Of a stretch of DNA of 20,687 bases, positions 509-12,422 are shown piece by piece; within the stretch, counting starts at the first letter, position 1, and each line of letters begins with the position of its first letter. The position numbers were made by a program, and so were the translations under genes. The stretch covers positions 2,259 through 22,945 of the IMG/VR virus record IMGVR_UViG_3300029319_006928. One strand, given 5' to 3'. Source of the stretch: a virus. Under the pieces are notes generated by a model. The model did not search any database and was not told the DNA's origin. It worked only from the letters and a program-made list of their open reading frames with translations.

Positions 509-1093
509 TTAATCAAAAGCGCTTCTTTTCATCCAATCATCTCGGAGGTCAAGGCCATAAAGTTTTTCTAATTCTCTTTTACGCTCAGTTTCTGTTTTTG
601 GTTGATTTATAAAAATTTTCTGACGTAATTTTATACGTTCAGAATCAAGTTTATCATACAGCTTGTCTATATCTTGATCTCCAAATTCAAACGATTTTGC
701 ATATTCTTTAAATCTATCCATATCTATTGGAGAATGAAAATCATCAGCATGACCTGTCATAACATAGTCAAACCAAGAACCGTGCTGCATTTCAACAGGG
801 GCGGTGGATTGAATGTTAAATGTCCTCATTTTGCTTGGGTCATGCTCTATATCAAGGGGTTCGTCCATGGAATCAGCTAACTCTCTTGCTTGATGGAAAC
901 CCTCTGGGTTCTGTGACCCTAGTTTGGTAAGTTTATCATGAAGTTCTGGGTAATTTATTGGTTGATCTTCATCGCCAAATGCTCTGATAGTTCCACCTTT
1001 GGGGTATTGTCTTCGTTTATCAAAGATCTGTCGGTTCATACTTCTATATTCTTCCATTATTAATTGTTCTAGTTTTTGTTTTGTTAGTTTCAT
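509..1093 (-). CDS. Leader-peptide paralog family protein A (unknown function)
   Basis: This 194-residue protein of unknown function begins MKLTKQKLEQLIMEEY. A longer frame reaches 1162, but the ATG at 1093 is preceded by GGAG and lies a few bases after the upstream stop (1096-1098), so the 23 extra residues are rejected. Its closest relative in the window is the gene just upstream (1096-1728). Both share the leader, an IFDKRR box, FGDEDQPI followed by YPELHDKL, and LAD..DEP. A third copy is at 11542-12168. The leader has an amphipathic helix pattern and ends in an I-x-E site that resembles T4 prohead-protease cleavage sites, so an internal virion protein is possible but unproven. The remainder is charged and soluble, with no membrane segment. 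Confidence 0.8.
   Translation of the reverse strand: MKLTKQKLEQLIMEEYRSMNRQIFDKRRQYPKGGTIRAFGDEDQPINYPELHDKLTKLGSQNPEGFHQARELADSMDEPLDIEHDPSKMRTFNIQSTAPVEMQHGSWFDYVMTGHADDFHSPIDMDRFKEYAKSFEFGDQDIDKLYDKLDSERIKLRQKIFINQPKTETERKRELEKLYGLDLRDDWMKRSAFD
1056..1093 (-). repeat. 38-base start-codon repeat, copy A
   Basis: Encodes the start of MKLTKQKLEQLIM. It differs from the copy at 12131-12168 at one base in 38 and from the copy at 1691-1728 at three. DNA identity this high, against divergent downstream sequence, points to recent copying or selection on the peptide. Confidence 0.8.
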
Positions 1094-1095
1094 TT

Positions 1096-1728
1096 TTATC
1101 TCCAAGTTCGTCCAACTAAATCCCAACCATATAAATCTTCGAGTTCTTGTCTTCGTTGCCAATTAAATCTTCGTCGATCTATATAATATTTAGAATTAAT
1201 ATCATTTCGTTCTGTTTCTAATTTTTTACGTAGGTTTTGTTTTTCTTCAGGTGTAGCTCTACTCTGAGGGAATTCATCTCTATCTTCACCCCATTCTATA
1301 TACCTTTCAAAAGTATCTTCGTCTATTTCATCTTCAAAATACTTAGTAAAACCTTTTCTTACATAGTGATACCATGTGCCGTATTCCCAATGCTCAGGTT
1401 TTGTTCCATAAGTATTTATGTTTGTTCTCGGATTGTATCTCTTCTCTGGAGCAAGAGGAATTGTTTTCATACCAGAAAATTTCCTGTCTATGGGTTCATC
1501 TAAAGTGTCAGCTAAATCTAATGCTTGTTTTCTACTTTCAGGATCACCTGAATAAAGAGTTCCAAGTTTATCATGTAATTCTGGATATTCTATTGGTTGG
1601 TCTTCGTCACCAAATACTCTAAAAAGTTCATCTCCGTGTTGTTTTCTTCGCTTATCAAAGATTTTTTGACTCATGGTTTTGAATTCTTCCATTATTAGTT
1701 GTTCTAATTTTTGTTTTGTTAATTTCAT
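1096..1728 (-). CDS. Leader-peptide paralog family protein B (unknown function)
   Basis: This 210-residue protein starts MKLTKQKLEQLIMEEF and is paralogous to the next gene downstream. It shares the IFDKRRK box, FGDEDQPIEYPELHDKL at about residues 40-56, and LADTLDEPID. Its ATG overlaps the stop of the upstream exported protein (ATGA at 1725-1728), indicating translational coupling. The middle is rich in aromatic and charged residues (for example EHWEYGTWYHYVRKGF), matching a similar block in paralog A (MQHGSWFDYVMTGH). Both copies therefore retain the same domain after the leader. No catalytic motif is recognised. Tandem duplication is the simplest origin of the pair. Confidence 0.8.
   Translation of the reverse strand: MKLTKQKLEQLIMEEFKTMSQKIFDKRRKQHGDELFRVFGDEDQPIEYPELHDKLGTLYSGDPESRKQALDLADTLDEPIDRKFSGMKTIPLAPEKRYNPRTNINTYGTKPEHWEYGTWYHYVRKGFTKYFEDEIDEDTFERYIEWGEDRDEFPQSRATPEEKQNLRKKLETERNDINSKYYIDRRRFNWQRRQELEDLYGWDLVGRTWR
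1691..1728 (-). repeat. 38-base start-codon repeat, copy B
   Basis: Second copy of the leader-coding repeat. It differs from copy A (1056-1093) at three positions, two of them silent or conservative in the encoded MKLTKQKLEQLIM peptide. Confidence 0.75.
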
Positions 1729-2216
1729 TCTTCATACTCCTTAATGTTAATAAGTAGTTTAACAACAGCTTGTTCGATTTCTCTTGCCGTGATTTCTGGT
1801 TTCTTTTTTATTAAAATTGGTGGCTTTTCAATCTCCGTCTTGAATGGTGCGATTGTGCCTCGTTCAACCTTAGTGCCCTTGACCGTTGTCTTTTGTGGAA
1901 TCTTTTCAATCTTGTATCGTTTGTGTATAATAGATTGAGATACAATCCTTGATTTTTCATCGTAAAGAAATATATTGATTTGATAAGTTTCTTCACCTTC
2001 AAATACAACTGTGTCGAGATACCATAGTCCCTTAACCATAGCACATTCTCTTGGTGGCATCATCTCACAATCAGCCCAATTAATAACAAGCATGTCTTTC
2101 TTTCTTGCATGAAAGTCTTTGTCAATAAAATAATGAACCACAGTTGTTTCCAGTTGAGTTGTCATTGGAGCAAACACAGTAGTTCCTAATGCCAAAGAGA
2201 TTAAAAAATAAATCAT
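1725..2216 (-). CDS. Exported protein of unknown function
   Basis: This 163-residue protein begins with a hydrophobic stretch (residues 2-16, MIYFLISLALGTTVFA) that looks like a signal peptide or anchor, although the n-region has no basic residue. The rest is hydrophilic. A predicted beta-rich middle (residues about 25-100, with two cysteines in DCEMMPPREC) is followed by a Lys-rich, Pro-containing linker and a C-terminal helix (REIEQAVVKLLINIKEY). Start and stop overlap the neighbours by ATGA on both sides, so it belongs to a translationally coupled chain from about 3682 to 1096. I do not recognise a family. The envelope or periplasm is the likely location if the leader is a real signal. Confidence 0.7.
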   Translation of the reverse strand: MIYFLISLALGTTVFAPMTTQLETTVVHYFIDKDFHARKKDMLVINWADCEMMPPRECAMVKGLWYLDTVVFEGEETYQINIFLYDEKSRIVSQSIIHKRYKIEKIPQKTTVKGTKVERGTIAPFKTEIEKPPILIKKKPEITAREIEQAVVKLLINIKEYEE

Positions 2217-2551
2217 TCATTCACCTTCCTTAAATTTTCTTCTGAAATGTATCGATGTTGACGGTTATTTTCTGAAATCAAGAGTTTATATTCAATAATG
2301 TAATAAGGCTCTCTTTCATCTGTTGGATAATCTACACCATAATCTCTACATTCATAAAATAAAATCCCGCAAACTAAACCATATTCTCCTTTCATTCTAT
2401 AAGATGAAGCACCATCATCAGAGCGAAAAGTGGTCTCGACTAAATCTCCTATTTCAAATTTAGGTATACGACCTTCCGGAAGTTTATCAACTTTTATTTG
2501 GTGAAAGTATTGTTCGATGTCGAAACCCTCCTCTACCGTATTGCTTATCAA
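2213..2551 (-). CDS. Small SH3-like (GDLV) protein of unknown function
   Basis: A 112-residue frame whose core is KFEIGDLVETTF (about residues 31-42), then YGLVCGI and YYIIEYKLLI. This has the spacing of small SH3-like barrel proteins seen in phages. Two other proteins in the window (2870-3352 and 8508-8786) carry the same xxGDLV core. The start is uncertain. The only upstream start codon is a TTG at 2551 lying 65 bases inside the preceding gene. A strong GGAGGG lies at about 2529-2534, but no ATG, GTG or TTG follows it in frame at normal spacing. The first residues may therefore be wrong, or an unusual start codon may be used. The stop overlaps the next ATG (ATGA). Confidence 0.7.
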   Translation of the reverse strand: MISNTVEEGFDIEQYFHQIKVDKLPEGRIPKFEIGDLVETTFRSDDGASSYRMKGEYGLVCGILFYECRDYGVDYPTDEREPYYIIEYKLLISENNRQHRYISEENLRKVNE

Positions 2552-2873
2552 GCTTCTTTTTAACTTGTTGAGCCATTTTAGCAGCAGTATTTATTATTTC
2601 ATCTAGATAAGGGTCTTTACCCCCATCATAATAAATAGTAAGAAAGCCCCATTTCATCTTAACTTGAACTATGTATCTTCTTTCTTCCATCTCTAGCTGT
2701 CTGTTTCTGTCTATGAAAGCTTTTGTTACAAAAGCCATAATCTCATCGTAATGTTCTATCGGTGAATAGTCATAACAGTTTCTATAGAGACTGATGCATT
2801 CTAACTCATATTCTCGATCTAAGTGATGGCACATTTTTTCGTTCCACACATAGTCATTTTTGTATTTTTTCAT
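2487..2873 (-). CDS. Small protein of unknown function
   Basis: This 128-residue protein has no recognised domain. The first half is rich in Tyr, Cys and acidic residues. The centre contains two beta-like strands (RYIVQVKMKWGFLTIYYDGG, about 66-85), and a predicted helix (DEIINTAAKMAQQVKKKL) leads to a basic C-terminus. The ATG at 2873 overlaps the previous stop (ATGA) and is preceded by GGAGG five bases away, so the start is secure. The 3' end overlaps the SH3-like gene by 65 bases. Nothing suggests enzymatic activity. Confidence 0.72.
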   Translation of the reverse strand: MKKYKNDYVWNEKMCHHLDREYELECISLYRNCYDYSPIEHYDEIMAFVTKAFIDRNRQLEMEERRYIVQVKMKWGFLTIYYDGGKDPYLDEIINTAAKMAQQVKKKLDKQYGRGGFRHRTILSPNKS

Positions 2874-3352
2874 TTTTCCTCCATTTTTTTAAGTTCACTA
2901 AATGTTACAAGATGACATTCTAAACCATCTGTTATTTCATAATCGTAATAAGCACAATCTAAAGGGTTGCTTGAAAACACATCTTTGATTAGCCATATCT
3001 TATTAAAGTCACAAAGCCCATACAAAGGATACCAATTAACAAGATCACCAACTTTATAGACTGATTTATCTACGATAACAGACGGATAATGTTTTTTGTA
3101 GCTGTTTGATACACCAGTCCCAAGTGAATTATAAACACTGTCAAATACTGGTAGTCTAAAATCATCGATGGTGGGGTAATAACTACTGCTAGACAGTCCA
3201 TGGACCAATGTCTTATAAACACCAGTGTTCCAGGTTTTAAATAAGCCATTTAAACCCCAATCGCAATCACACGGATCACATTCACAATATGGACACTCAC
3301 TAGCCACAACATTCACATTCGCAGCATTCTGATCCACATTTACATTTATCAC
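2870..3352 (-). CDS. Cys-rich and SH3-like protein, probably entered by frameshift or reinitiation
   Basis: The long frame runs from a GTG at 3352 and encodes a cluster SECPYCECDPCDCDW (metal-binding-like), then an SH3-like block VYKVGDLVNWYPLYGLCD and a C-terminal region. The first 15 residues of this frame (MINVNVDQNAANVNV) are the out-of-frame reading of a different Cys-rich frame that starts at the well-supported ATG at 3362. The natural N-terminus is therefore probably not the GTG at 3352. Either ribosomes shift +1 near 3300, or translation restarts at GTG 3307, which overlaps the upstream stop as GTGGCTAG, or there is a sequencing indel. The 3' part is well supported, and its stop overlaps the next ATG. 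Function unknown. Confidence 0.65.
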   Translation of the reverse strand: MINVNVDQNAANVNVVASECPYCECDPCDCDWGLNGLFKTWNTGVYKTLVHGLSSSSYYPTIDDFRLPVFDSVYNSLGTGVSNSYKKHYPSVIVDKSVYKVGDLVNWYPLYGLCDFNKIWLIKDVFSSNPLDCAYYDYEITDGLECHLVTFSELKKMEEK

Positions 3353-3362
3353 AATTTTTCAT
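3300..3362 (-). CDS. 20-residue Cys-rich peptide or first segment of the frameshifted gene
   Basis: ATG at 3362 overlaps the preceding stop (ATGA at 3359-3362) and has GGAG seven bases upstream, the same arrangement as the other coupled genes here. The frame encodes MKNCDKCKCGSECCECECCG, with 8 cysteines in 20 residues, and ends at TAG (3302-3300). The cysteine pattern continues in the +1 frame just past the stop, so this may be one protein read across a frame change. Read alone it would be a metallothionein-like peptide. Confidence 0.55.
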   Translation of the reverse strand: MKNCDKCKCGSECCECECCG

Positions 3363-3682
3363 CTTCTATCTCCTTTTTCAACGAATTTTTTTGCATAATG
3401 AAGAACTTCTTTCTCCAATCTTTCTTGATTTTTTTCAAGTTGTTTTAGCCTATCTTCCATTAGTTTAAATTGAACTTGACGATCAACAGCGTCTGAGCCG
3501 TTTTGGTTATCCATGTGAGCGACAATTTTTTCTAATGATTTGTTAGCATCATCCATCTTGTACTCCAATGCTCCAAGTCTCATTTCTGAGTCCCAAATCC
3601 ATACAAAACAAGGCACAATGATGATAGATAACAATACAGTAAAGCCTTTCCACGCATAATCTGCGATTTTTGATTTTTCCAT
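3359..3682 (-). CDS. Membrane-anchored coiled-coil protein, possible inner-membrane spanin
   Basis: This 107-residue protein has one N-terminal transmembrane helix at about residues 14-31 (FTVLLSIIIVPCFVWIW) with a short basic cytoplasmic start. It is followed by a long amphipathic, heptad-rich helix (about 37-100, for example KLMEDRLKQLEKNQERLEKE) that would lie in the periplasm. This is the architecture of i-spanins, which fuse the inner and outer membranes at lysis together with an outer-membrane lipoprotein. The adjacent upstream gene encodes a lipoprotein-like protein, which fits but does not prove this. A holin accessory or another membrane coiled-coil protein is equally possible, since no endolysin or holin is recognised nearby. 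Start ATG at 3682 has GGGAGG. Confidence 0.75.
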   Translation of the reverse strand: MEKSKIADYAWKGFTVLLSIIIVPCFVWIWDSEMRLGALEYKMDDANKSLEKIVAHMDNQNGSDAVDRQVQFKLMEDRLKQLEKNQERLEKEVLHYAKKFVEKGDRR

Positions 3683-3716
3683 GACATAAATCCTCCCTAG
3701 TCTGGTTAATAAATAG

Positions 3717-4616
3717 TTACTCGATGTGCCCAGTGCCCACCACTTCCCAAATTTGTAAAGTTTCCATATAGGAATTATTTATGTCTGTCTCTACAAGACC
3801 TATCTCGAATCGTTCGATGTGTATTGCAACCAACGACCATGTTGGATAATTTAAGTATTGTGAAGGGATGAACATTGCCCCGTTATCTGGTCCAAAGCAA
3901 GAAATTTGACCCAACAAGGAAGATCCATCGGACGAATAGATACCAAGAGTTATCATCATTTTGCTAGTTGTTCTAACAGGAGCCCAAGTAATAGTAAAGC
4001 CCGAACGACGAACAGCTGCTTCAAAAGCATAGGAAGGGTCAACCCAAAGCATTGTATACGGCTCAATGTAGTCAAACCCTTCAACTGTTGTAAATTGAAA
4101 TGAACCCTCACTTGTTTGCACATTATAAACAGCATTTCGTTGCAAATGTGACTCCCAAATGTTTTGCGATGTGTAAATTCCAGCTCCACTTTGATAAGCA
4201 TCAAATTGATGATTTTGATTCATAACTTGTATTGTTTGTCCAACTTGCATTGGCACCGTCGACGGTGTTGATCGATAAAGATATGGATCACAAGTACCAT
4301 CTTGTGGTATCCATGAATTCCAAGAATCTGATATTGGTTGGTGAACCTGCAATTCATATTCAACAGTTAGTTCTTGAGTCTCTCCCATACATGCAGGACA
4401 AGCAATCTGTCTAAGATACATAGTTGATAATCCTGTAACTCCTGCTCTTTGTTGCTCATAAGACGGCTCTGAACCAACTTCAGCGGATGGTTGTGGCGCA
4501 ATAGCAACAGGCTCTCCCGGCTCTCCAACACCAATTGATTGACCTGTTTCTTCTTCTATTCTTTTTATAATTGACACATCCGAATCACATGCCCATAATA
4601 ATAATCCTAATAACAT
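3717..4616 (-). CDS. Exported lipoprotein-like protein of unknown function
   Basis: This 299-residue protein starts MLLGLLLWACDSD, a very short hydrophobic leader ending in a possible lipobox LWAC (Cys10) followed by Asp. It lacks the usual basic n-region, so the lipoprotein call is tentative. A Pro/Glu-rich linker (about 20-55) leads to a beta-rich body with paired cysteines (CPACMG at about 74-79) and many Trp, Tyr and Ser residues, as in surface or periplasmic beta-sandwich proteins. The ATG overlaps the previous stop as TAATG, with GGAG in front. It lies between the J-domain gene and the membrane coiled-coil gene. It could be a host-like surface lipoprotein, a superinfection-exclusion factor or an outer-membrane spanin partner. 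No family is recognised. Confidence 0.75.
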   Translation of the reverse strand: MLLGLLLWACDSDVSIIKRIEEETGQSIGVGEPGEPVAIAPQPSAEVGSEPSYEQQRAGVTGLSTMYLRQIACPACMGETQELTVEYELQVHQPISDSWNSWIPQDGTCDPYLYRSTPSTVPMQVGQTIQVMNQNHQFDAYQSGAGIYTSQNIWESHLQRNAVYNVQTSEGSFQFTTVEGFDYIEPYTMLWVDPSYAFEAAVRRSGFTITWAPVRTTSKMMITLGIYSSDGSSLLGQISCFGPDNGAMFIPSQYLNYPTWSLVAIHIERFEIGLVETDINNSYMETLQIWEVVGTGHIE

Positions 4617-5185
4617 TATAACTCCAAATTAAATAATTGTTTTAAAAACTGCTTTACAAGTGATACTTTGCAATCTTCAGTTTCGCACTCCTGTAGTCTC
4701 CAGGAATACATAGTCTTGTTTTTTTTAATAATCTTTTTTAATCTCTCTGCTTCACTTTTCATAACGGGCAATACTTCATCTAAATCTTCAGGTATGATTC
4801 CGTATTCCTCTGCTATCTGGAGCAACATTGCCCAATCTCCTTCTTCGAAAGCAGCTGAAGCTGTTTTGAAATCTAATGTGGTACCTTCGTGTTTATCAGG
4901 ATGTGTTACTTTTGCAACTTGTTTAAATAAAGAGTGAAACTTTTTTTTCTCTTTTTTCTTTTCTTCACTTAAAACTATTATGCCAGCTTCATCATTTTTC
5001 AAATCTGAAAAATTTGGCTGCGATAAAAATTTTGAAACTCGAGTTTCGTGTTTTTCATTTAACGCTGTCAAATTTAGGTTGTTATCTTGACACCATTGTC
5101 TATAGAACAATTCAAAGTCTTGATGAGCTATGCTCAATACTTCTTCTTGATATGACAACTCTGATCTTAAAAATTTTAATTCCAT
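4616..5185 (-). CDS. J-domain (DnaJ-like) protein
   Basis: The protein carries a J-domain core FKQVAKVTHPDKHEG, with the HPD tripeptide that contacts Hsp70/DnaK, followed by a helix (TASAAFEEGDWAMLLQIAEE). It lacks the G/F region and zinc domain of full DnaJ, so it is a minimal co-chaperone that could recruit host DnaK. A long N-terminal helix with many charged residues precedes the J-domain. Start choice: an open frame extends to a TTG at 5254 and an ATG at 5227, but the TTG is part of a promoter -35 box and the ATG overlaps its -10 box. A transcript from that promoter would begin near 5219, so the first available ATG is 5185 (190 residues). It lacks a clear Shine-Dalgarno, so 5227 remains possible on read-through mRNA. 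Confidence 0.8.
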   Translation of the reverse strand: MELKFLRSELSYQEEVLSIAHQDFELFYRQWCQDNNLNLTALNEKHETRVSKFLSQPNFSDLKNDEAGIIVLSEEKKKEKKKFHSLFKQVAKVTHPDKHEGTTLDFKTASAAFEEGDWAMLLQIAEEYGIIPEDLDEVLPVMKSEAERLKKIIKKNKTMYSWRLQECETEDCKVSLVKQFLKQLFNLEL

Positions 5186-5225
5186 AATATGTTTTTTGTA
5201 TTTTTTTCTTTTTATCTGATAATTC

Positions 5226-5254
5226 ATTATAACACATTTAATCCATTCTGTCAA
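5226..5254 (-). promoter_or_regulatory. Consensus sigma70 promoter for the J-domain operon
   Basis: Perfect TTGACA (5254-5249), a 17-base spacer and TATAAT (5231-5226) on the minus strand, with TGTGT before the -10. The -35 half lies inside the last codons of the upstream nucleotidyltransferase-like gene (stop at 5238). Expected transcription start is near 5219. Confidence 0.87.
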
Positions 5255-6140
5255 GTGCTATTGAGCCAAATTCTTTAAATTTCATTAACCAGTCTGGTGG
5301 TCGAATAGTTTTACTAGCAAGATTAGAACATAAATAGTTTCTATAATTTTGCCAAGAAGATAAATCATAAAAATCTTCTACCTCAAGTTTGTTATCTGTG
5401 TTTAGTTCTGTGAAAACATCTTCTAAACCAAACCAACGTGCTGAATATCTTTCTTCTAATGGTAGTTTGTTTCTAGGTATTCCATCTTCGTCGGTTTCAT
5501 TTGTAAATTTTCCCGTGCCTTTTCTTAAATTTCTACGAAACTTTATAAATTCTTCTTTACCAAATGAAAAACTAGTGTGTATTCCTTGCTCTGGTGTTTG
5601 TTGATTGTGAGTAATGAGAAAATTTTTGGAGGAAGAAATTTTTGGGCGGTGCTGTCGTAAGATTTCTGGATCGAAAAATCCATAAGGAAAAGAAACCCAA
5701 TATTTATTGGGATAAATCCATTTAGATACTGTAGCTGAAACTTTAAAGGCGGAAAGTGCTCCTTCTATTACTGACCAAGCTAAACAATCTCTTCTAAACC
5801 TATTCTTTGGATGAACTGGTACATAAAAAATTGGTATCCTTCTTTGGTTAGCTGTTGGTTGTGGGTCCATACTGCGCCATGCCCAAACAGGGTCTTGTAT
5901 GTAATCACCTATTCTATGTCTAACCAGTGGTGCGGTGTCTTCATAAAGACAAACCCAGATAGTTTCACAACCTGCCCAGGCACACTCCATAATAGCAGCT
6001 TCAATCATTGTATAGTTAGGTGCTATTGGCATCATAAAGTCAGGCCACTCCATGCCAAAATCAAGAGATTGACCTCCACAAGGTACTATTCCGGCGAGGT
6101 GGTAAGATGAGCCATTAACATTTTTTGTGTCAAATTCCAT
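5238..6140 (-). CDS. Nucleotidyltransferase-like (GT-A fold) protein
   Basis: In this 300-residue protein, residues about 14-65 (LAGIVPCGGQSLDFG, then MMPIAPNYTMIEAAIMECAW, AGCETIWVCLYED) match the opening of nucleotidyltransferase folds: a strand, a Gly-rich loop, and a helix ending in AG...IWV. The usual G-x-G-x-R and Lys of active sugar-nucleotidyltransferases are not present in standard form, so catalysis is uncertain. The rest includes WAWRSMDPQP, FYVPVHPKNR and KYWVSFPYGFFDPE, conserved-looking aromatic stretches. I recall similar unnamed proteins in marine T4-like phages. It overlaps the upstream Rossmann-like gene by 55 bases, so the two are probably co-translated. AGGA lies eight bases before the ATG at 6140. 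Confidence 0.72.
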   Translation of the reverse strand: MEFDTKNVNGSSYHLAGIVPCGGQSLDFGMEWPDFMMPIAPNYTMIEAAIMECAWAGCETIWVCLYEDTAPLVRHRIGDYIQDPVWAWRSMDPQPTANQRRIPIFYVPVHPKNRFRRDCLAWSVIEGALSAFKVSATVSKWIYPNKYWVSFPYGFFDPEILRQHRPKISSSKNFLITHNQQTPEQGIHTSFSFGKEEFIKFRRNLRKGTGKFTNETDEDGIPRNKLPLEERYSARWFGLEDVFTELNTDNKLEVEDFYDLSSWQNYRNYLCSNLASKTIRPPDWLMKFKEFGSIALDRMD

Positions 6141-6901
6141 AGGTTTGTTCCTTTATTGTTCTTCCATGATAAGATTTCCTCAATTGATAGTTTATTATTT
6201 TGTTCTTCAAAGACTTCACGATACATGTGCTCAATAGAAATAGCATAATGAAGAACTTTGCCTTTTCTATTATAGCCATTTGCTCTTCCTCTTATACCCA
6301 CTCCTTTCATCATCTGAAGTGTCTTTATACGAGTGTAGGTGGGTGACCACTCTATGTTGTTCAGAGACTCTCTAGACACCCTAGAGACTGCACAAACGTC
6401 CTTGACATCAGACCTTGTACGAGGTCTAGTTGATCTGTGGAATAAGAGTAAGTGACACAAATCTTCATCAGGGTTGGGAATAACTTCCCAATCATGCCGA
6501 GAACCAGAATGTACGGCAAACCAATCATAAACCATAAGATAGTCTTTTGAATCTCTATCAAATTCAATTAGTTTATTATAATTGACAATCATTTTTTTAT
6601 TATCTAATCCAATTATGTTTATAAAGTCATCTTCTATTCTAAAAGATTCTATATTGTTGGGAAAAAGAACCAAACCAGACATAGCCAAAAGGAAAGATAA
6701 TCGATCCCACACTTGAGACTTTTTATGCTGTCCTTTCTTAGCAAATCCGATGAAAGAAAGATCCCAATGCGATGGTACTTCATCTAAAACAAAAGGCACA
6801 TGAGCGACATCGATCAAAATTGGCAGATTTTTTTTATAAGCATATAATAAAGCAGTTAAAGATCCACCAAGGACTAATTCATCAAAGTAAAATTTATTCA
6901 C
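6086..6901 (-). CDS. Rossmann-like dinucleotide-binding-type protein, unknown function
   Basis: This 271-residue protein starts at a GTG at 6901 that overlaps the previous stop (GTGA), with AAGG upstream. The N-terminus DELVLGGSLTALLYAY (residues 7-22) resembles the strand-glycine loop-helix of FAD/NAD-binding folds (GGSxxA), and is followed by LPILI as a second strand. The middle contains HSGSRHDWEVIPNPDED and FHRSTRPRTRSDVKD, and the C-terminal half contains RIKTLQMMKGVGIRGRANGY. No complete oxidoreductase signature is visible. Its 3' end overlaps the nucleotidyltransferase-like gene by 55 bases in a different frame, suggesting that the pair works together, perhaps in a modification pathway. 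That role is inference. Confidence 0.7.
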   Translation of the reverse strand: MNKFYFDELVLGGSLTALLYAYKKNLPILIDVAHVPFVLDEVPSHWDLSFIGFAKKGQHKKSQVWDRLSFLLAMSGLVLFPNNIESFRIEDDFINIIGLDNKKMIVNYNKLIEFDRDSKDYLMVYDWFAVHSGSRHDWEVIPNPDEDLCHLLLFHRSTRPRTRSDVKDVCAVSRVSRESLNNIEWSPTYTRIKTLQMMKGVGIRGRANGYNRKGKVLHYAISIEHMYREVFEEQNNKLSIEEILSWKNNKGTNLWNLTQKMLMAHLTTSPE

Positions 6902-8511
6902 AGTGCACCTTTATTTCTTAAATAAATGATAATTTTTTTTATATCTTTTTGCTCTTTTTCAGTACTATCTTTAGAAATTAACGATAATTTTTCCCACATA
7001 CTTGGTTCTATTTTCTTATTAGATGCTTGTTTCACAACTATTTGTTGTAAAATGTTGTTCGCTTCAATAACCTTATCAGTGTACTCTACTGTCGCATTTT
7101 CAATAGTGGCGGCGTTTACTTTATATTTTTTTAAAATTTCTATTCCTTTGGCTCTTTCATCACTCTGTAACATGTCAAAAAAATTATACATTCTATCAAT
7201 TCTAAATTTTTCAATCATACCTTTTTGAATGTCTTGTGAAATTTTCATTACAGTTAGTTCAAAGTTTTTTAAATTATCAACTATTGTCTTTTGAGGTTCA
7301 TAATCTTTTACTAAATCAGTGAAGCTATCATCTTCGTTTAGATAACCAGCCATTCTTAATCCTTTGATTGTTCTCATGAATTTTCTTTTCTTATTTTTAA
7401 TCAAAACTTGTGGAATTTTGTTTTTAATTCTTAAAAGATCCAACATAATTGATGGATAAGCGCCTATCTGAAGTGCTTGTTTTGTTTTATTTAAAATGTC
7501 ATCAAAGGGTATCAGTAAAAATTCAATTATTTCTGCATCGTTCATTTGAGAAAGAGGTTTTGGATTATTTGCAATTTTTTTATCATCATTTATCAAAGAA
7601 TTGAGAAAAATGTTATAAACAAACGATAAACCTTCAGATGATTTTAAATTTGTCATCCATCCAGTACCAAAAGTGTTCTTTCTTTCTTGAACTGTGAGCC
7701 CATTTCTGTAGTTATCAGCATAAAGCTCTGCTGTCAATTCACCTACTTTCTTATCCGATGGCTTAAGACCATCAGCTTGGGCTAAGTTATTACAGGTTAG
7801 CCACATATAATCAAAAGAGAAAAATCTTTTATGTTCTTCAGGTATGTTTTTTAATTCTGCTGAATTTTTATACATGTGGTCTCTGGTGCCTCGAATACCT
7901 TTTGTTGTGGTGTCACCATAAAGAGCACCGGATCTAAATTTTGCAAATTGCATTCTTTCAAATTCACCGGGGGAACCTTTTGACATAAACGTGGAGACAG
8001 CTGTGGATTTTTCATCTTTTTCTGAAAACTTTTCTGTAAAATCTAAAACTTTTTTATAATCTGAATAGAACACATCAACAAGTTCTTGATAATCGCCTAT
8101 AGCATCAACAAATGCCATGGCTCTGTCTCTAACTTCTTTGATAACAGCATCTATGTTTTGACCATTTCCTATGTACCACTTGCCATCTTTACCTTTGTAA
8201 GTTCCTCTGTATAAGTAATACAAAAGTGTTGTTTCTTTAGGATCTCTAATTGGTCCATAAGCTTTTTCTCGATCAAACTCATCTTCTTCATCAGAATAGG
8301 TATCAATGTATTCACTAGGGTTGTCGCGAAACCATTTATATTGATCTTCATGATGAACAGGATCAAGAAATGTATTAACATCTAGAGTAGGTTTGGAAAG
8401 AGTTGTATCAATTATGGTACCAATGACGATCCTGTGTTTCTCAGTTTCTTCAGGAGTGTAAGACATTTGTTTTAATACTTCTTTTATAATGCTTTTAAAA
8501 GTTATGTTCAT
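6898..8511 (-). CDS. Large protein of unknown function with leader-like N-terminus
   Basis: This 537-residue protein has no recognised domain. It opens MNITFKSIIKEVLKQM, a short amphipathic helix with an I-x-E site similar to, but diverged from, the MKLTKQ leader of other proteins here. The rest is helical, Lys/Asp/Glu-rich and soluble, with aromatic motifs such as EDQYKWFRDNPSEY and FFSFDYMWLTCNN, and a repeated helical C-terminal part. The size and composition would suit an internal virion or ejected protein, but this is inference. The start ATG overlaps the upstream stop (ATGA at 8508-8511) behind GAGGT. The stop overlaps the downstream GTG. Its neighbours give no clear pathway. Confidence 0.75.
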   Translation of the reverse strand: MNITFKSIIKEVLKQMSYTPEETEKHRIVIGTIIDTTLSKPTLDVNTFLDPVHHEDQYKWFRDNPSEYIDTYSDEEDEFDREKAYGPIRDPKETTLLYYLYRGTYKGKDGKWYIGNGQNIDAVIKEVRDRAMAFVDAIGDYQELVDVFYSDYKKVLDFTEKFSEKDEKSTAVSTFMSKGSPGEFERMQFAKFRSGALYGDTTTKGIRGTRDHMYKNSAELKNIPEEHKRFFSFDYMWLTCNNLAQADGLKPSDKKVGELTAELYADNYRNGLTVQERKNTFGTGWMTNLKSSEGLSFVYNIFLNSLINDDKKIANNPKPLSQMNDAEIIEFLLIPFDDILNKTKQALQIGAYPSIMLDLLRIKNKIPQVLIKNKKRKFMRTIKGLRMAGYLNEDDSFTDLVKDYEPQKTIVDNLKNFELTVMKISQDIQKGMIEKFRIDRMYNFFDMLQSDERAKGIEILKKYKVNAATIENATVEYTDKVIEANNILQQIVVKQASNKKIEPSMWEKLSLISKDSTEKEQKDIKKIIIYLRNKGAL

Positions 8512-8786
8512 TCTATTTTAACCTCTAATAAAAAGTTTTCCGGCATCATTCTAACTAGTTCTTTTCCTACTAAAATATCATAACACCACCATTCAAAATA
8601 AACTAGATCATGGTATGATTCGATTGATTTGTACGAGTAGGGACCTTTTGTGACTATTCCTATTTCACTCTTTGCTAAGATAATACCAAAGCCTCTAATC
8701 TTCACCAGATCGCCGATGGAAAAAAGAGGTTTTGTTATTGGTTTAGTGTATTTCGTCACATGCTTCACACTTTTTAGGGTGTCCAT
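8508..8786 (-). CDS. Small SH3-like (GDLV) protein
   Basis: A 92-residue protein with a core PLFSIGDLVKIRGFGIILAK, then IGIVTKGPY, LVYFEWWCYDILV and ENFLLEV. This is the strand pattern of a small SH3-like barrel. It shares the GDLV core with proteins at 2213-2551 and 2870-3352. The ATG at 8786 (TTG at 8789 is also open) lies within the small lipoprotein gene in another frame and has only a weak ribosome site, so the start may instead be one of the internal GTG codons. The stop overlaps the start of the 537-residue gene. Likely a nucleic-acid or protein adaptor. Function unknown. Confidence 0.68.
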   Translation of the reverse strand: MDTLKSVKHVTKYTKPITKPLFSIGDLVKIRGFGIILAKSEIGIVTKGPYSYKSIESYHDLVYFEWWCYDILVGKELVRMMPENFLLEVKIE

Positions 8787-8886
8787 CAAAATAGATTCTT
8801 GGTAAGTCTAGCCTTTTTACATTTCTGCAACTTCCTGCAAATAAAAACACCATTGTGTACATTATTAATTGTATTTTTTTATCCAT
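8743..8886 (-). CDS. 47-residue lipoprotein (hidden small gene)
   Basis: A short frame with a perfect GGAGG five bases before ATG 8886, overlapping the end of the upstream gene. It encodes MDKKIQLIMYTMVFLFAGSC, a textbook lipoprotein signal with basic start, hydrophobic core and lipobox AGSC (Cys20). A 28-residue tail follows with DLPRIYFDG and a C-x2-C pair (KCEAC). The mature protein would be a tiny lipid-anchored peptide, comparable in design to phage o-spanins or bacteriocin-release-type lysis lipoproteins. Its size is below common gene-calling cutoffs, and it overlaps the next gene in another frame by 44 bases. The start signals are stronger than those of the overlapping SH3-like gene. 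Confidence 0.68.
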   Translation of the reverse strand: MDKKIQLIMYTMVFLFAGSCRNVKRLDLPRIYFDGHPKKCEACDEIH

Positions 8887-9818
8887 ATTTTCCTCCGTTT
8901 TTTGGATTCTTGTAAACCAGTATCTGTTTTTGATGACTGTATTCTTTTAGCTGTATCTTGAAGATATTCAGATATCTTAAAATCATCTCCTTGAGATAAT
9001 TCAAATTCTTTTAAAATATAAATTCTTTCTTGTTTTGATCCCATGTGATATCTTCTAATCACTTTTTTTACAGCTGCTTCGCTTTCTTGAACATACCTAC
9101 CGTCTCTTTCAACGTATGCATTTTCCGCGACATCATCTAGAAACTCATAAATTTTTTGTTGCCACACATCGAATGCAACAGACCATGCGAGTGGTAAATA
9201 TATTTGCCCTTTTTCATTATAAAGATAAGGAACATTGTCAAAGGGTGGGTTATAGGGCCAAGCGTGTGGGCTGTACAAGTTGTTATGTAAGTTAACAATT
9301 TCTTTTGTATAGTACCAGTCTTTTAATTGATCGACAGTTAGACCAGTGGTTGGTAAAACTTCGTCTGGATCTAGTGCTCCGGGATGAACGTAAACCATTC
9401 TAGGGTTCAATTGATACCAACTATCTTTATATTTTTTTATCATTCTTTTCATTGGAATTTTAGGGTTGTAAGTACCCTTCATCCAACCATCTTTTATAAT
9501 ACCATCTTGTAACGCTGGAGAGTTTGCAGCTTCAACTTCTCTATTTCTCCAATTAAAATCACCTTTTTCTTTTATTTCATCTTGATATTTTTGCAATTCA
9601 GTTCTTGTATCTTCAGGCTCCACATCTTCAGGTGTCACATTCTTTTTTAAAGAAGCTAATGTAGCACCACCAATCAAGCCTAATGCTCCTAATCCTTTTA
9701 TGAAGTTTCTTCTACTAACAGCCTCGTTAAGCACTTCAATTCCAGGATGATAAATCTCAGGAAGATCATATGAATTTCTCCAGTTTTCAATTATTTTGTC
9801 TACTTGTTTATACGACAT
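8865..9818 (-). CDS. Protein with twin-arginine-like signal motif, unknown function
   Basis: A 317-residue protein. The start is placed at ATG 9818 because AGGAG lies eight bases upstream. The frame opens 21 bases earlier, but that ATG has no ribosome site. Residues 35-41 are SRRNFIK, matching the Tat consensus S-R-R-x-F-L-K, and are followed by a hydrophobic GLGALGLIGGATLASL (42-57) and then a hydrophilic region. A 34-residue stretch precedes the motif, and it also contains an I-I-E helix (KQVDKIIENW). The body is aromatic-rich (KDSWYQLNPRMVYVHPG, DWYYTKEIVNLHNNLYSPH, PLAWSVAFDVWQQKIYEF) and resembles no family I can name. It overlaps thyX by 11 bases. Export through the host Tat system is inferred. 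A membrane-associating helix is the alternative. Confidence 0.75.
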   Translation of the reverse strand: MSYKQVDKIIENWRNSYDLPEIYHPGIEVLNEAVSRRNFIKGLGALGLIGGATLASLKKNVTPEDVEPEDTRTELQKYQDEIKEKGDFNWRNREVEAANSPALQDGIIKDGWMKGTYNPKIPMKRMIKKYKDSWYQLNPRMVYVHPGALDPDEVLPTTGLTVDQLKDWYYTKEIVNLHNNLYSPHAWPYNPPFDNVPYLYNEKGQIYLPLAWSVAFDVWQQKIYEFLDDVAENAYVERDGRYVQESEAAVKKVIRRYHMGSKQERIYILKEFELSQGDDFKISEYLQDTAKRIQSSKTDTGLQESKKRRKIWIKKYN

Positions 9819-10518
9819 CTCTAATTCTCCTGTATGCACTTACAGTCTCAGGCCAAAGATCAGTAGCTATTTCTAAGCATGCTTCAGCAACTTTTTGTAT
9901 TTCCCACTGTGCTCCTTCGTGTGTTCTGAGATCTATAAATTTCAAAAGATTATTAAGATTTGCTGTTCCGTAGTATTCTGTGTAAAGGTTTTGTGGAAGA
10001 ATCATCCTTGCCTGTTCTCTGCAAACTCCGGCTTCTAACATGACTTGGTACGCATGAAGACAATCTTGTGTCCTGTTTTGTAAAATTTCTGAACAAGTTA
10101 CCATAGAAAAGTCTTTGTATGCTAATGGATCTTGTAAATCATCTACATTAGACGCTTGTCTGTTTGACTTGTGTTGTGTTCTGAAATTGTTTGGTAGATA
10201 AAATCTGAGGTCTTTGTCTGTGTATCTTCTTGAGATTTCATTATATGACCAAGTACGATGTCTGTGGTGTTGTGAACGAACAAATAAAGGCACAATAAAC
10301 TTGAAAGTAATAACATTGTGCTCGAGAGTTGATGTATGTCTGTGTTTAATAAGGTAATTGATAAGTTTTTTGTCGCGATTATCAAGACCAGTTTTTTCCA
10401 CACCAAAGGAGACCCTTGCTGAATTAACAATAGTAAGATCACTCCCCATATGTTCAACATAAGAGACAGAACCGATATTATCATTGTATAAGGATATTGT
10501 TTTATCATATTTCATCAT
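9808..10518 (-). CDS. thyX: Flavin-dependent thymidylate synthase ThyX
   Basis: This 236-residue protein is within the usual ThyX size range. It methylates dUMP to dTMP using FAD and methylene-tetrahydrofolate, with NADPH as reductant. The signature RHRX7S is present as RHRTWSYNEIS at residues 86-96. Other typical parts are the SARVSFG segment (33-39), LINYLIKHRHTSTLEH (52-67), and REQARMILPQNLYTEYY with the arginine and serine/tyrosine-rich end of the active site. The start at 10518 follows AGGA and the stop of the DUF3293-like gene by six bases. It complements the ribonucleotide reductase in supplying dTTP. It lies in a transcript from the promoter at 11504-11532. Confidence 0.95.
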   Translation of the reverse strand: MMKYDKTISLYNDNIGSVSYVEHMGSDLTIVNSARVSFGVEKTGLDNRDKKLINYLIKHRHTSTLEHNVITFKFIVPLFVRSQHHRHRTWSYNEISRRYTDKDLRFYLPNNFRTQHKSNRQASNVDDLQDPLAYKDFSMVTCSEILQNRTQDCLHAYQVMLEAGVCREQARMILPQNLYTEYYGTANLNNLLKFIDLRTHEGAQWEIQKVAEACLEIATDLWPETVSAYRRIRDVV

Positions 10519-10524
10519 TTATTC

Positions 10525-11142
10525 CTAAACTGGTATGATCCACTTCTTACCTGATGTTGGATCATAAGAGTGATCGCCTGTCATTTTCATTTGTTTAATT
10601 TGATCATCATCATAAACGGTAGTGGTTGTTGGAACAGGACCAACTGCACCGTAAGCTCTATCATGATTGACACTATAGTCTATTTTATATAGCGTAAATC
10701 CCATAGCAGGGTTATCAGGATCAGTAATTCTATCACCAGCTAAAAAACCCCATTGTCCAAATTCTCTGTTGAGAGCTGCTATTTTATGTAAGAATTGATC
10801 GTGTGCATCTGCGGATGGGTCTTCGTTGTAAACAAGAACACTTTGCTCATCTAAGCCATAGAAATTACCACCAACTCTTTTGAAAGGTAATCCTTCTTCT
10901 TTGAGTCTTTGCTCTAAAGATTTTTTCAATCTTGCATTTCTAGTTTTGATACCTAAAGGTGTAGATGCATCAGAAGAAGATGCTCCAGGGTTTTGTCCAG
11001 ACATTATTGCTAAAGATTTGTAAGGTGCATCTCGTAATATTTTTATAATTTTTTTGTATTTAGAAATGTGTTCTTCAGTAAGAAGTTTTTCTTTAACTTC
11101 CTTGATAATCATTTCTTTTAATAGTTGTTTAGTAAGTTTCAT
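10525..11142 (-). CDS. DUF3293-like protein with leader peptide
   Basis: This 205-residue protein opens MKLTKQLLKEMIIKEV, a variant of the leader shared with genes at 509, 1096 and 11542. After a helix, residues about 45-130 run SGQNPGASSSDAS, NARLKKSLEQRLKEEGLPF, GNFYGLDEQSVLVYN and ALNREFGQWGFLAGD. This order (A-x-NP, N-x-R-L, small residue-rich loop, E-x-S-x-x-V, F-x-Q) resembles the DUF3293 family by memory. The C-terminal part (TLYKIDYSVNHDRAYGAVG) is an addition. Function unknown. It overlaps the GroES-like gene by 14 bases and has GGGAG before its ATG. The DUF assignment is moderately uncertain. Confidence 0.75.
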   Translation of the reverse strand: MKLTKQLLKEMIIKEVKEKLLTEEHISKYKKIIKILRDAPYKSLAIMSGQNPGASSSDASTPLGIKTRNARLKKSLEQRLKEEGLPFKRVGGNFYGLDEQSVLVYNEDPSADAHDQFLHKIAALNREFGQWGFLAGDRITDPDNPAMGFTLYKIDYSVNHDRAYGAVGPVPTTTTVYDDDQIKQMKMTGDHSYDPTSGKKWIIPV

Positions 11143-11416
11143 CGTCTAATCTCCCGTAGATGTAATTTTCTAACACTAAATAGTTCTTTTCACCTTTAAT
11201 TTCTATCTCTGTTAGCATTCTACGTTCAATTACAACAAGATCTCCTTGTTCTAAAAATAGATTACTATCACCAGATGATTGTAATACTTTCACAACCAAA
11301 TAAGGTGACTGATTCTTTTTATAATCTTGTGGCAAAGCAATAAGGGATTGTTGCTCTTCACTTTCTTCTTCGACAAGTTCAACAAGAACATGTCTATTAT
11401 AAATATTTATAAACAT
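11129..11416 (-). CDS. groES: GroES/gp31-like co-chaperonin
   Basis: This 95-residue protein has the GroES plan. A first strand NRHVLVELV (residues 7-15) is followed by a region that would form the mobile loop (ESEEQQSLIALPQDYKKNQ), then YLVVKVLQ, GDLVVIERRMLTEI and a closing NYLVLENYIYGRL. The GD...V and YxxxxExxIxG pattern is characteristic. T4 gp31 and similar phage proteins replace host GroES in folding capsid proteins with GroEL. The mobile loop contains hydrophobic LIAL, as expected for GroEL binding. ATG 11416 follows GGAGG. It is the first gene of the operon from promoter 11504-11532, and its roughly 80-base leader carries a hairpin at 11437-11469. Confidence 0.8.
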   Translation of the reverse strand: MFINIYNRHVLVELVEEESEEQQSLIALPQDYKKNQSPYLVVKVLQSSGDSNLFLEQGDLVVIERRMLTEIEIKGEKNYLVLENYIYGRLDDETY

Positions 11417-11436
11417 TTAACCTCCGATAAAATAAA

Positions 11437-11469
11437 AACTTGTCACGCAAAGAAGAGTTGCCACAAGTT
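11437..11469 (-). terminator. Attenuator-like hairpin in groES leader
   Basis: On the minus strand the RNA would form AACTTGT (11469-11463) paired with ACAAGTT (11443-11437). An inner GCAA/TTGC pair and a seven-base loop complete the hairpin, and a U-rich run TTTATTTTA follows. It sits between the promoter and the GroES-like start, so it could be a leaky terminator or RNA stability element. Confidence 0.45.
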
Positions 11470-11503
11470 CTATTCAACACCATAAGTCGAACAGCATAAT
11501 TAT

Positions 11504-11532
11504 ATTATAACACATTGTGTGTTGTTTGTCAA
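11504..11532 (-). promoter_or_regulatory. Consensus sigma70 promoter for groES-thyX operon
   Basis: Perfect TTGACA (11532-11527), a 17-base spacer and TATAAT (11509-11504), with TGTGT preceding the -10 box. The flanking AAATATTTGACAAA and TGTGTTATA match those of the uvdE promoter almost exactly. Expected start near 11497. Confidence 0.87.
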
Positions 11533-11541
11533 ATATTTTAT

Positions 11542-12168
11542 TTATTTTTTATATGGTTGTAATTTGAAATTTTCTTTTCGGGTTTTCAACGGTTTACTTT
11601 CGGGATACTCTTCCACTGCGTATTGATTATAGTAATCTATCGCATCTTGAGAGTTAGAAAATTGTTTTGATAGTTTTGTATCGAAGATATTTCTACCATT
11701 GTAATCTGTTGGGTAGAGATTCACAAACCATGGTTTAGACAACATCTTGTCGGTAAAGCTTCCAACTTTATATTCATTAAGATAAATCTCAATCCAGCCT
11801 CCTACTGGTGCATATGATGGATCTGGTTGGAGTTTAGACCAATGTTTGAACTGATTTGGATATAAATCATGCACTTCAAACTCCGAATCACCTCTGGGAA
11901 GTTTAAGAAAAATTGGTTCATCAACTGCATCGGCTAATTCTGTAGCTTGGTTTCGATCCTGTGTGTAGAGTTTGGCTAACTTGCCATGAATCTCAGGGTT
12001 TTTAGTTTGCATTCCCTGATCCCCTGCTACTTGGATAAATGTATCTTTATTCTTGTACGGCTTCATCATGTCTTCAGTATCTTGTCTGCGTTTATCAAAA
12101 ACTCTTCGACTCATACTTTTGTATTGTTCTATTATTAATTGTTCTAATTTTTGTTTTGTTAGTTTCAT
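11542..12168 (-). CDS. Leader-peptide paralog family protein C (unknown function)
   Basis: This 208-residue protein begins MKLTKQKLEQLIIEQY, then MSRRVFDKRRQ, NPEIHGKLAKL and ELADAVDEPIF. It is the third member of the family with the genes at 509 and 1096. The C-terminal half differs and contains GGWIEIYLNEYKVGSF, FVNLYPTDYNGRN and SKQFSNSQDAIDYYNQY. AGGAG precedes ATG 12168. The gene lies directly after the terminator at 12186-12214, with no consensus promoter of its own, so it may be transcribed by leakage or by a weak promoter. Its stop is followed at once by the groES promoter. A leader that is removed during capsid maturation is a hypothesis. The protein has no recognised domain. Confidence 0.8.
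   Translation of the reverse strand: MKLTKQKLEQLIIEQYKSMSRRVFDKRRQDTEDMMKPYKNKDTFIQVAGDQGMQTKNPEIHGKLAKLYTQDRNQATELADAVDEPIFLKLPRGDSEFEVHDLYPNQFKHWSKLQPDPSYAPVGGWIEIYLNEYKVGSFTDKMLSKPWFVNLYPTDYNGRNIFDTKLSKQFSNSQDAIDYYNQYAVEEYPESKPLKTRKENFKLQPYKK
12131..12168 (-). repeat. 38-base start-codon repeat, copy C
   Basis: Third copy of the leader-coding sequence, with one mismatch in 38 to the copy at 1056-1093 about 11 kb away. A shorter version of the same bases occurs at the start of the gene ending at 12422 (TTGTTCTAGTTTTTG on the plus strand). Confidence 0.78.
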
Positions 12169-12185
12169 GCGCTTCTCCTAATAAA

Positions 12186-12214
12186 AAACCCTATGATAAT
12201 TAGTCACAGGGTTT
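12186..12214 (-). terminator. Rho-independent terminator after helicase-nrdJ-H1 operon
   Basis: Minus-strand RNA: AAACCCTGTGA (12214-12204), a seven-base loop (12203-12197), TCATAGGGTTT (12196-12186), then TTTATT. The stem is 11 pairs with one G-U. It lies 22 bases after the stop of the H1-like gene. Confidence 0.85.
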
Positions 12215-12236
12215 GATAATAACAAAAGAATAGATG

Positions 12237-12422
12237 TTACTCTTCGTTCTTTTTAGCTTGAATCTCTTTACGAAGTTCTTGGAACTGACCTCTTGCTTCG
12301 TGAAGAGTCTTTCTGGCACGGACAGCAGCTGCTTTGTAACCATAGGACTTTTCATCCACTTTTTCTATGTCATCAAGAATGGCTTGAAGCCCTTCGATTA
12401 GTTGTTCTAGTTTTTGTTTCAT
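12237..12422 (-). CDS. Small histone H1-like (Hc1-type) protein
   Basis: This 61-residue, helical and strongly charged protein (MKQKLEQLIEGLQ..., then YKAAAVRARKTLHEARGQFQ and RKEIQAKKNEE) matches the plan of short bacterial and phage histone H1/Hc1-type proteins. Those have an N-terminal helix ending in Glu/Asp, then (K/S)xxAxxRxRKxLxE and a Lys-rich end. Such proteins bind DNA non-specifically. The gene starts 11 bases after the nrdJ stop behind GGAG and is the last gene before the terminator. Its first bases are very like the MKLTKQ leader repeat, with a KLT deletion. Whether this is homology or convergence cannot be decided here. A small coiled-coil protein is the alternative. Confidence 0.65.
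   Translation of the reverse strand: MKQKLEQLIEGLQAILDDIEKVDEKSYGYKAAAVRARKTLHEARGQFQELRKEIQAKKNEE

Follow-up and report, generated by a model that had tools for sequence, protein, structure and literature searches.

Leader-like N-termini in the window

The whole stretch of DNA analyzed here (the window; 20,687 nucleotides) corresponds to positions 2259-22945 of a 46,479-base IMG/VR record, IMGVR_UViG_3300029319_006928, and derives from an uncultured T4-like phage. It encodes a ribonucleotide reductase, a DnaB-like helicase, a UvsX-like recombinase, and a single-strand binding protein, as well as a ThyX assigned by its sequence, and the record further contains tail genes as well as a capsid gene resembling gp23, which is cut off at the right end of the record. 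The original prediction held that several otherwise unrelated proteins in this window begin with one amphipathic peptide ending in an (I/L)xE site, which may sort them into the phage head and be removed there. The N-termini and coordinates on which it was built match the sequence. The features concerned, all on the minus strand, are as follows.

509..1093, minus strand: leader protein, paralog copy 1 of three, 47% identical to 1096-1728
1052..1093, minus strand: leader peptide of 509-1093, residues 1-14, MKLTKQKLEQLIME
1096..1728, minus strand: leader protein, second paralog copy, immediately upstream of copy 1
1687..1728, minus strand: leader peptide of 1096-1728, MKLTKQKLEQLIME
6898..8511, minus strand: 537-aa protein, possible shortened leader (MNITFKSIIKEVLKQM), a variant seen once
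8865..9839, minus strand: protein with possible second-type leader (KIIENWRNSY), VLNE followed by A before a twin-arginine-like stretch
10525..11142, minus strand: leader plus DUF3293 domain; residues 31-204 are predicted to fold like the SAM lyase of phage T3
11074..11142, minus strand: residues 1-23 of the DUF3293-like protein, its leader, with a putative site LTE23 followed by E
11177..11184, minus strand: ACTATTTA, element resembling a late promoter, 42 nt upstream of the DUF3293-like start
11542..12168, minus strand: leader protein, paralog copy 3, C-terminal half diverged
12127..12168, minus strand: leader peptide of 11542-12168, MKLTKQKLEQLIIE
12237..12422, minus strand: Hc1 histone-like protein, not a leader protein (Pfam PF07432, E 5.9e-9)

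Three of these proteins, 509-1093, 1096-1728, and 11542-12168, are 41-47% identical overall, and BLASTP of the first against the last gave 43% identity over 115 aa (E 2e-22). Their conserved block runs via FDKRR and NPE(I/L)H.KL to ADxxDEP near residue 85. Since the similarity reaches residue ~85-115, the three proteins form one family rather than unrelated cargo. There were no matches to 509-1093 in Pfam or PHROG, and the predicted structure of the 509-1093 paralogs (pLDDT 55, low confidence) gave no fold match at E <= 0.001. The gene at 11542-12168 is flanked by one terminator-like and one promoter-like site. Thus, the earlier statement that the domains following the peptide differ does not apply to these paralogs; it does hold for 10525-11142, which carries another domain (DUF3293), has only the first 17 residues in common with them (pairwise E 0.002), and is the only protein of the window in which the leader clearly stands before a different domain.

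The more weakly resembling N-termini fared differently. The proposal that 12237-12422 is a leader protein fails: Pfam PF07432 (Hc1) spans residues 2-59 of 61, i.e., the whole protein, so that the start belongs to the Hc1 fold, and the corresponding residues of the fold read MREELENII or MREQLEGII in orthologs. Orthologs of this histone-like protein also occur in DUF3293-carrying relatives, with conserved synteny. The start of 6898-8511 may be a leader with a three-residue deletion (MNIT, the gap, and then FKSIIKEVLKQM), a variant that occurs once, and no relatives of this protein were found. In addition, the original prediction had missed 8865-9839, which has a possible leader of a second type (KIIENWRNSY...VLNE followed by A), one seen beside the protease in relatives. 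In this protein an internal twin-arginine-like stretch, SRRNFIKGLGALGLIGGA, comes directly after the VLNE and A, which is odd for a phage protein.

The leader begins many unrelated viral proteins

To look outside the window, viral contigs were scanned with a DNA pattern encoding M-K-[IL]-T-K-x2-[L]-x2-I-I-x-E-E, and a relaxed peptide pattern was applied to ORFs of at least 40 codons in the collected DNA. The leader MKITKxxLxxIIKEELxxxLxE begins 277 distinct ORFs in this DNA. With Met as the first residue, the leader expression returned 277-283 matches, compared to at most 15 with any other first residue; these up to 15 non-Met matches are Val, probably from GTG starts. The consensus is strong throughout, with M1 at 100%, K2 at 93%, I/L3 at 94%, T4 at 92%, K5 at 86%, L8 at 96%, I11 at 86%, I12 at 96%, E14 at 99%, and E15 at 83%. 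The same leader residue is encoded by widely varying codons, and since codons vary freely, selection acts on the peptide; conservation at the RNA or DNA level was rejected on the same ground. The exact DNA patterns were found in none of 50 random viral records (a comparison set sampled by an arbitrary 14-mer), and reversed patterns gave no matches in 31 records.

We then grouped the 261 leader proteins of at least 60 aa by BLASTP of their mature parts (after residue 25), which yielded 222 clusters. Most cargos have no known domain and many are small, while known domains include GNAT acetyltransferases, a pentapeptide-repeat protein, FliG_C, DUF5661, and DUF3293. These clusters bear directly on plain gene duplication, i.e., the idea that the common start is the residual homology of one old family with diverged C-termini. 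Duplication is true for the proteins at 509, 1096, and 11542 and for small cargo families elsewhere; however, as a general account it is very improbable, because the 222 clusters have no detectable similarity after residue 25 while the leader is near-identical, and several clusters have different known folds.

A cellular search covered 257 billion bases, taking one genome from each of 84,980 bacterial and archaeal species, and showed the strict pattern to be nearly absent: its 11 stretches come without exception from MAG records, which represent seven genomes. One 306-kb MAG contig with an S77 protease, NHDW01000006.1, contains 23 leader genes by the exact pattern and 27 by relaxed reading, of which 19 lie nearly end to end in an array of ~8 kb with almost entirely unrelated cargo. 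Within this contig, ORF 7013-7786 (reverse strand numbering) has a second complete leader (MKITKRQLRNIIRESL) near residue 175, suggestive of a fusion between two cargo genes. A second shared leader, MKL(I/L)(M/L)E(N/S)WRxFLxE, is found on many different proteins, often beside the protease, and its core adjoins the start codon in 26 of 31 cases.

The 22-aa consensus leader gave no tblastn matches in phage records, for which the query is too short, and neither 10525-11142 nor one leader protein had a tblastn match in INPHARED; thus, no isolate with proteomics was found. The leader is absent from the head region of the nearest isolates by gp23, Flavobacterium phage immuto and Microcystis phage Mel-JY01. 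Leader peptide strings (at least two of four together) were not found in any paper of the open-access collection searched, which is weak evidence of novelty.

Leader genes often accompany and adjoin the head-maturation protease

The protease domain PF03420 (S77, T4 gp21 type) was present in 31 of 50 leader records, including 12 of the 13 that are at least 100 kb long, and gp23 was present in 26 of the 50. Nearly all of the 19 records that miss S77 are short and without gp23. The window's own record has no detectable protease because it ends inside gp23. Among random records, S77 exceeded the cut-off in 4 of 50 and in 3 of 8 at >= 100 kb, in a sample unmatched for size and habitat, and all four random records with S77 were without the leader: many S77 phages do not have it.

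Gene position provides stronger evidence than these co-occurrence counts. Using contigs fetched by gp23 similarity alone, i.e., without reference to the leader, we found a leader gene no more than 1.8 kb away from the protease at 8 of 16 loci, in most cases immediately upstream of it, and at 10 of 16 when the second leader type was included. In two gp23-selected records of 71-72 kb, the sole leader genes found (of both types) sit at the protease, and in a third, all seven leader genes lie within 17 kb of it. The contig whose gp23 is closest to that of the window phage (88% identity) has a leader gene immediately before the protease. Two further genes were seen in this region: a conserved ~140-aa protein with a leader-like start (MKKxELKKLIKPLVKECIKEVLLEEG), located downstream of the protease in nearly every locus, and, next after it, a small bS21-like basic protein.

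We take this position beside the protease to be the T4 gene 67/68 neighborhood. In T4, genes 67 and 68 lie beside gene 21, just as small leader genes here lie directly beside the protease gene; unlike in T4, the same leader here is also on genes far from the head cluster. The resemblance lends weight to an alternative in which the leader does target the prohead core, where its proteins would serve as scaffold, core, or DNA-condensing parts rather than as delivered effectors, since the protease-adjacent copies sit where T4 has its core proteins gp67 and gp68 and many cargos are small and without known domains. Conversely, GNAT acetyltransferases, a pentapeptide-repeat protein, and a SAM-lyase-like fold look like effectors, and arrays of at least 20 different cargos are more in keeping with an arsenal than with a structure. 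The main rival, albeit an unlikely one, is head loading without delivery.

A second cleavage-like site resembles the gp23 maturation site

For cleavage-site counts, one protein was taken per cargo cluster (n = 222). A [LIVM]xE motif with its Glu at residues 17-26 was present in 154 of 222 cargo types (69%), compared to 83 ± 7 when residues 15-30 were shuffled (maximum 102 in 500 shuffles). Helix periodicity may account for part of this excess, but the preference at P1' is not explained by it: Ala, Gly, or Ser followed the second-site Glu in 43% of cases (p 1e-11), compared to 20% where this motif recurs further along the proteins and 29% for other Glu residues of that region. A second site with a small P1' residue was found in only 2 of 20 proteins with A/G/S at residue 15, compared to 81 of 202 others (p 0.007); where residue 15 is A, G, or S, IxE14 would be a good site itself. 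In the same phages, gp23 has LL(R/K)E followed by A or S, with Leu at P3 in 55 of 59 and Ala or Ser at P1' in 52 of 59. The three window paralogs have no second [LIVM]xE site, and their sole candidate, IxE14, is followed by E or Q and so departs from the A/G/S preference; cleavage there is thus the weakest part of the case.

These features also bear on whether the leader could be a docking or dimerization helix for some other partner, such as the host ribosome, RNA polymerase, a membrane, or the phage replication site. An amphipathic N-terminal helix is capable of such docking; however, this would leave unexplained why the leader is linked to the protease and lies next to it, why small residues are preferred at P1', why the P1 Glu is invariant, and why the site matches that of gp23, and we consider it improbable.

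The DUF3293-like cargo is predicted to have a SAM lyase fold

Pfam DUF3293 (PF11697) matched 9 of 10 orthologs of 10525-11142 (best E 2e-8), while the window copy itself gave no match. Across ten aligned orthologs, M1, L3, T4, L8, I12, and E23 are invariant; E23 is kept despite a 5-residue indel between I12 and E23, and the residue after it is A or G in most orthologs. Further orthologs retain the N-terminal helix, some as MNKEQLKxMIKxVILE.

An AlphaFold2 model of 10525-11142 reached modest quality, at a mean pLDDT of 60, and placed residues 5-20 in a helix of their own with low confidence. When this model was compared to the PDB using Foldseek, ranks 1-3 were phage SAM lyases. In a second comparison, the T3 SAM lyase (8bb1_E) aligned with Z 13.4 and an rmsd of 2.7 over 139 of 147 residues, model residues 31-204 falling on residues 1-151 of the T3 chain, while the next unrelated structure reached Z 6.6. 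Since the match starts at residue 31, the leader lies outside the cargo fold, and for this protein the possibility that the peptide is an integral part of a known fold does not hold. Invariant E99 lies near T3 E68, as judged by alignment range only; E69 of Svi3-3 is critical, and T3 E68 is its equivalent (PMC7877911). No sequence similarity of the DUF3293-like proteins to the T3 SAMase was found. We infer that 10525-11142 may cleave SAM. The DUF3293 domain appears to have a SAM lyase fold, which points to a possible role for this uncharacterized domain. The T3 SAMase has a fold like that predicted here; however, it has no leader, is made early, and is not packaged.

A probable removable address for the phage head

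Together, these results suggest that the leader is a T4-type capsid-targeting propeptide, acting as a removable head address label on its cargo, which is the best explanation at a probability of roughly 0.8. At the level of sequence, this reading draws on the leader itself, the 222 unrelated cargo clusters, co-occurrence with and adjacency to the S77 protease, the second cleavage-like site with its small P1' residues and the same motif at the gp23 maturation site, and a SAM-lyase-like cargo fold that excludes the leader. The comparative evidence gives good support to the original idea of a head-targeting propeptide cut by a gp21-type protease at (L/I)xE, although the three paralogs count as one family of cargo and 12237-12422 drops out as a leader protein.

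From these observations we infer core binding, cleavage, packaging, and ejection, as follows. An amphipathic helix of 14-22 residues (MK[IL]TKxxLxx[IL]IxEE...) at the head of otherwise unrelated phage proteins would bind the prohead core while the head assembles. The S77 (T4 gp21-type) prohead protease would remove it after [LI]xE, with the cut at residue 14 or, in more cases, at a second position around residues 18-26, and the freed cargo would remain in the head with the DNA and enter the next host. There, the SAM-lyase-like cargo of 10525-11142 could lower S-adenosylmethionine early in infection. We also lean, with less assurance, towards a broader reading, namely that in widespread T4-like and jumbo phages one standard address peptide loads a large, fast-changing set of unrelated effectors, including the SAM-lyase-like enzyme.

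The mechanism class is already known from T4, where propeptides of the internal proteins (IPs; CTS, 10-19 residues) address proteins to the core of the prohead and are cleaved by gp21; positions 4, 7, 8, and 10 of the ~10-residue IP CTS matter, and a review has proposed that such CTSs enable T4-like phages to package a variety of proteins (PMC9026906). Likewise, ip genes in T-even phages were found by the T4 CTS leader, the only part that IPs share (PMC12373910). As in T4 IPI, IPII, and IPIII, the leader described here is a short N-terminal propeptide common to otherwise dissimilar proteins, with an (L/I)xE site, a gp21-family protease in the same genomes, and T4-like head genes. In contrast to the 10-residue T4 CTS, it reads MKITKxxLxxIIKEE, often with a second site near residue 22, and its consensus falls outside the T4 IP CTS sequence family in both residues and spacing. 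It also differs from the T4 case in its spread over different, mostly uncultured phages, in its hundreds of cargo types, in its arrays of about 20, and in the presence of a second leader type. Head ejection proteins of phiKZ and SPN3US have propeptides cut after Glu by a gp21 homolog and are ejected into the host; to our knowledge, these propeptides are not one short common leader.

Injected head proteins act before any phage gene expression, and they are hard to find because their cargo domains share nothing. A sequence tag would allow candidate injected anti-defense proteins of mostly uncultured phages to be listed; if the reading is true, the injected proteins of such phages could be recognized directly from sequence. 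It would further suggest that loading capsids by way of a removable leader extends beyond the T-even phages as a general, modular means of delivery, and the leader would provide a new targeting peptide with which to package proteins in phage heads.

Expression timing of the DUF3293-like gene

The element ACTATTTA lies 20-50 nt before 123 of 722 ORFs in gp23-selected contigs, compared to 1 of 864 random ORFs, and the genes that it precedes include scaffold and sheath genes. In the window's record, it is found at -41 of the tail sheath gene and at -42 of the DUF3293-like gene, where it falls within the coding region of the preceding gene, and in seven orthologs of the latter it is at -45 to -46. 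Judging from its placement, ACTATTTA looks like the late promoter of these T4-like phages, replacing the TATAAATA of T4, which was found before only 1 of 242 leader genes. Late expression of the DUF3293-like gene would fit a packaged protein. A perfect sigma70 promoter (12/12; TTGACA-17-TATAAT with TG) is located at 11504-11532 on the minus strand, before the gene at 11129-11416, and since it lies upstream of this preceding gene, early expression of the DUF3293-like gene is also possible. The product of 11129-11416 appears GroES-like on inspection by eye.
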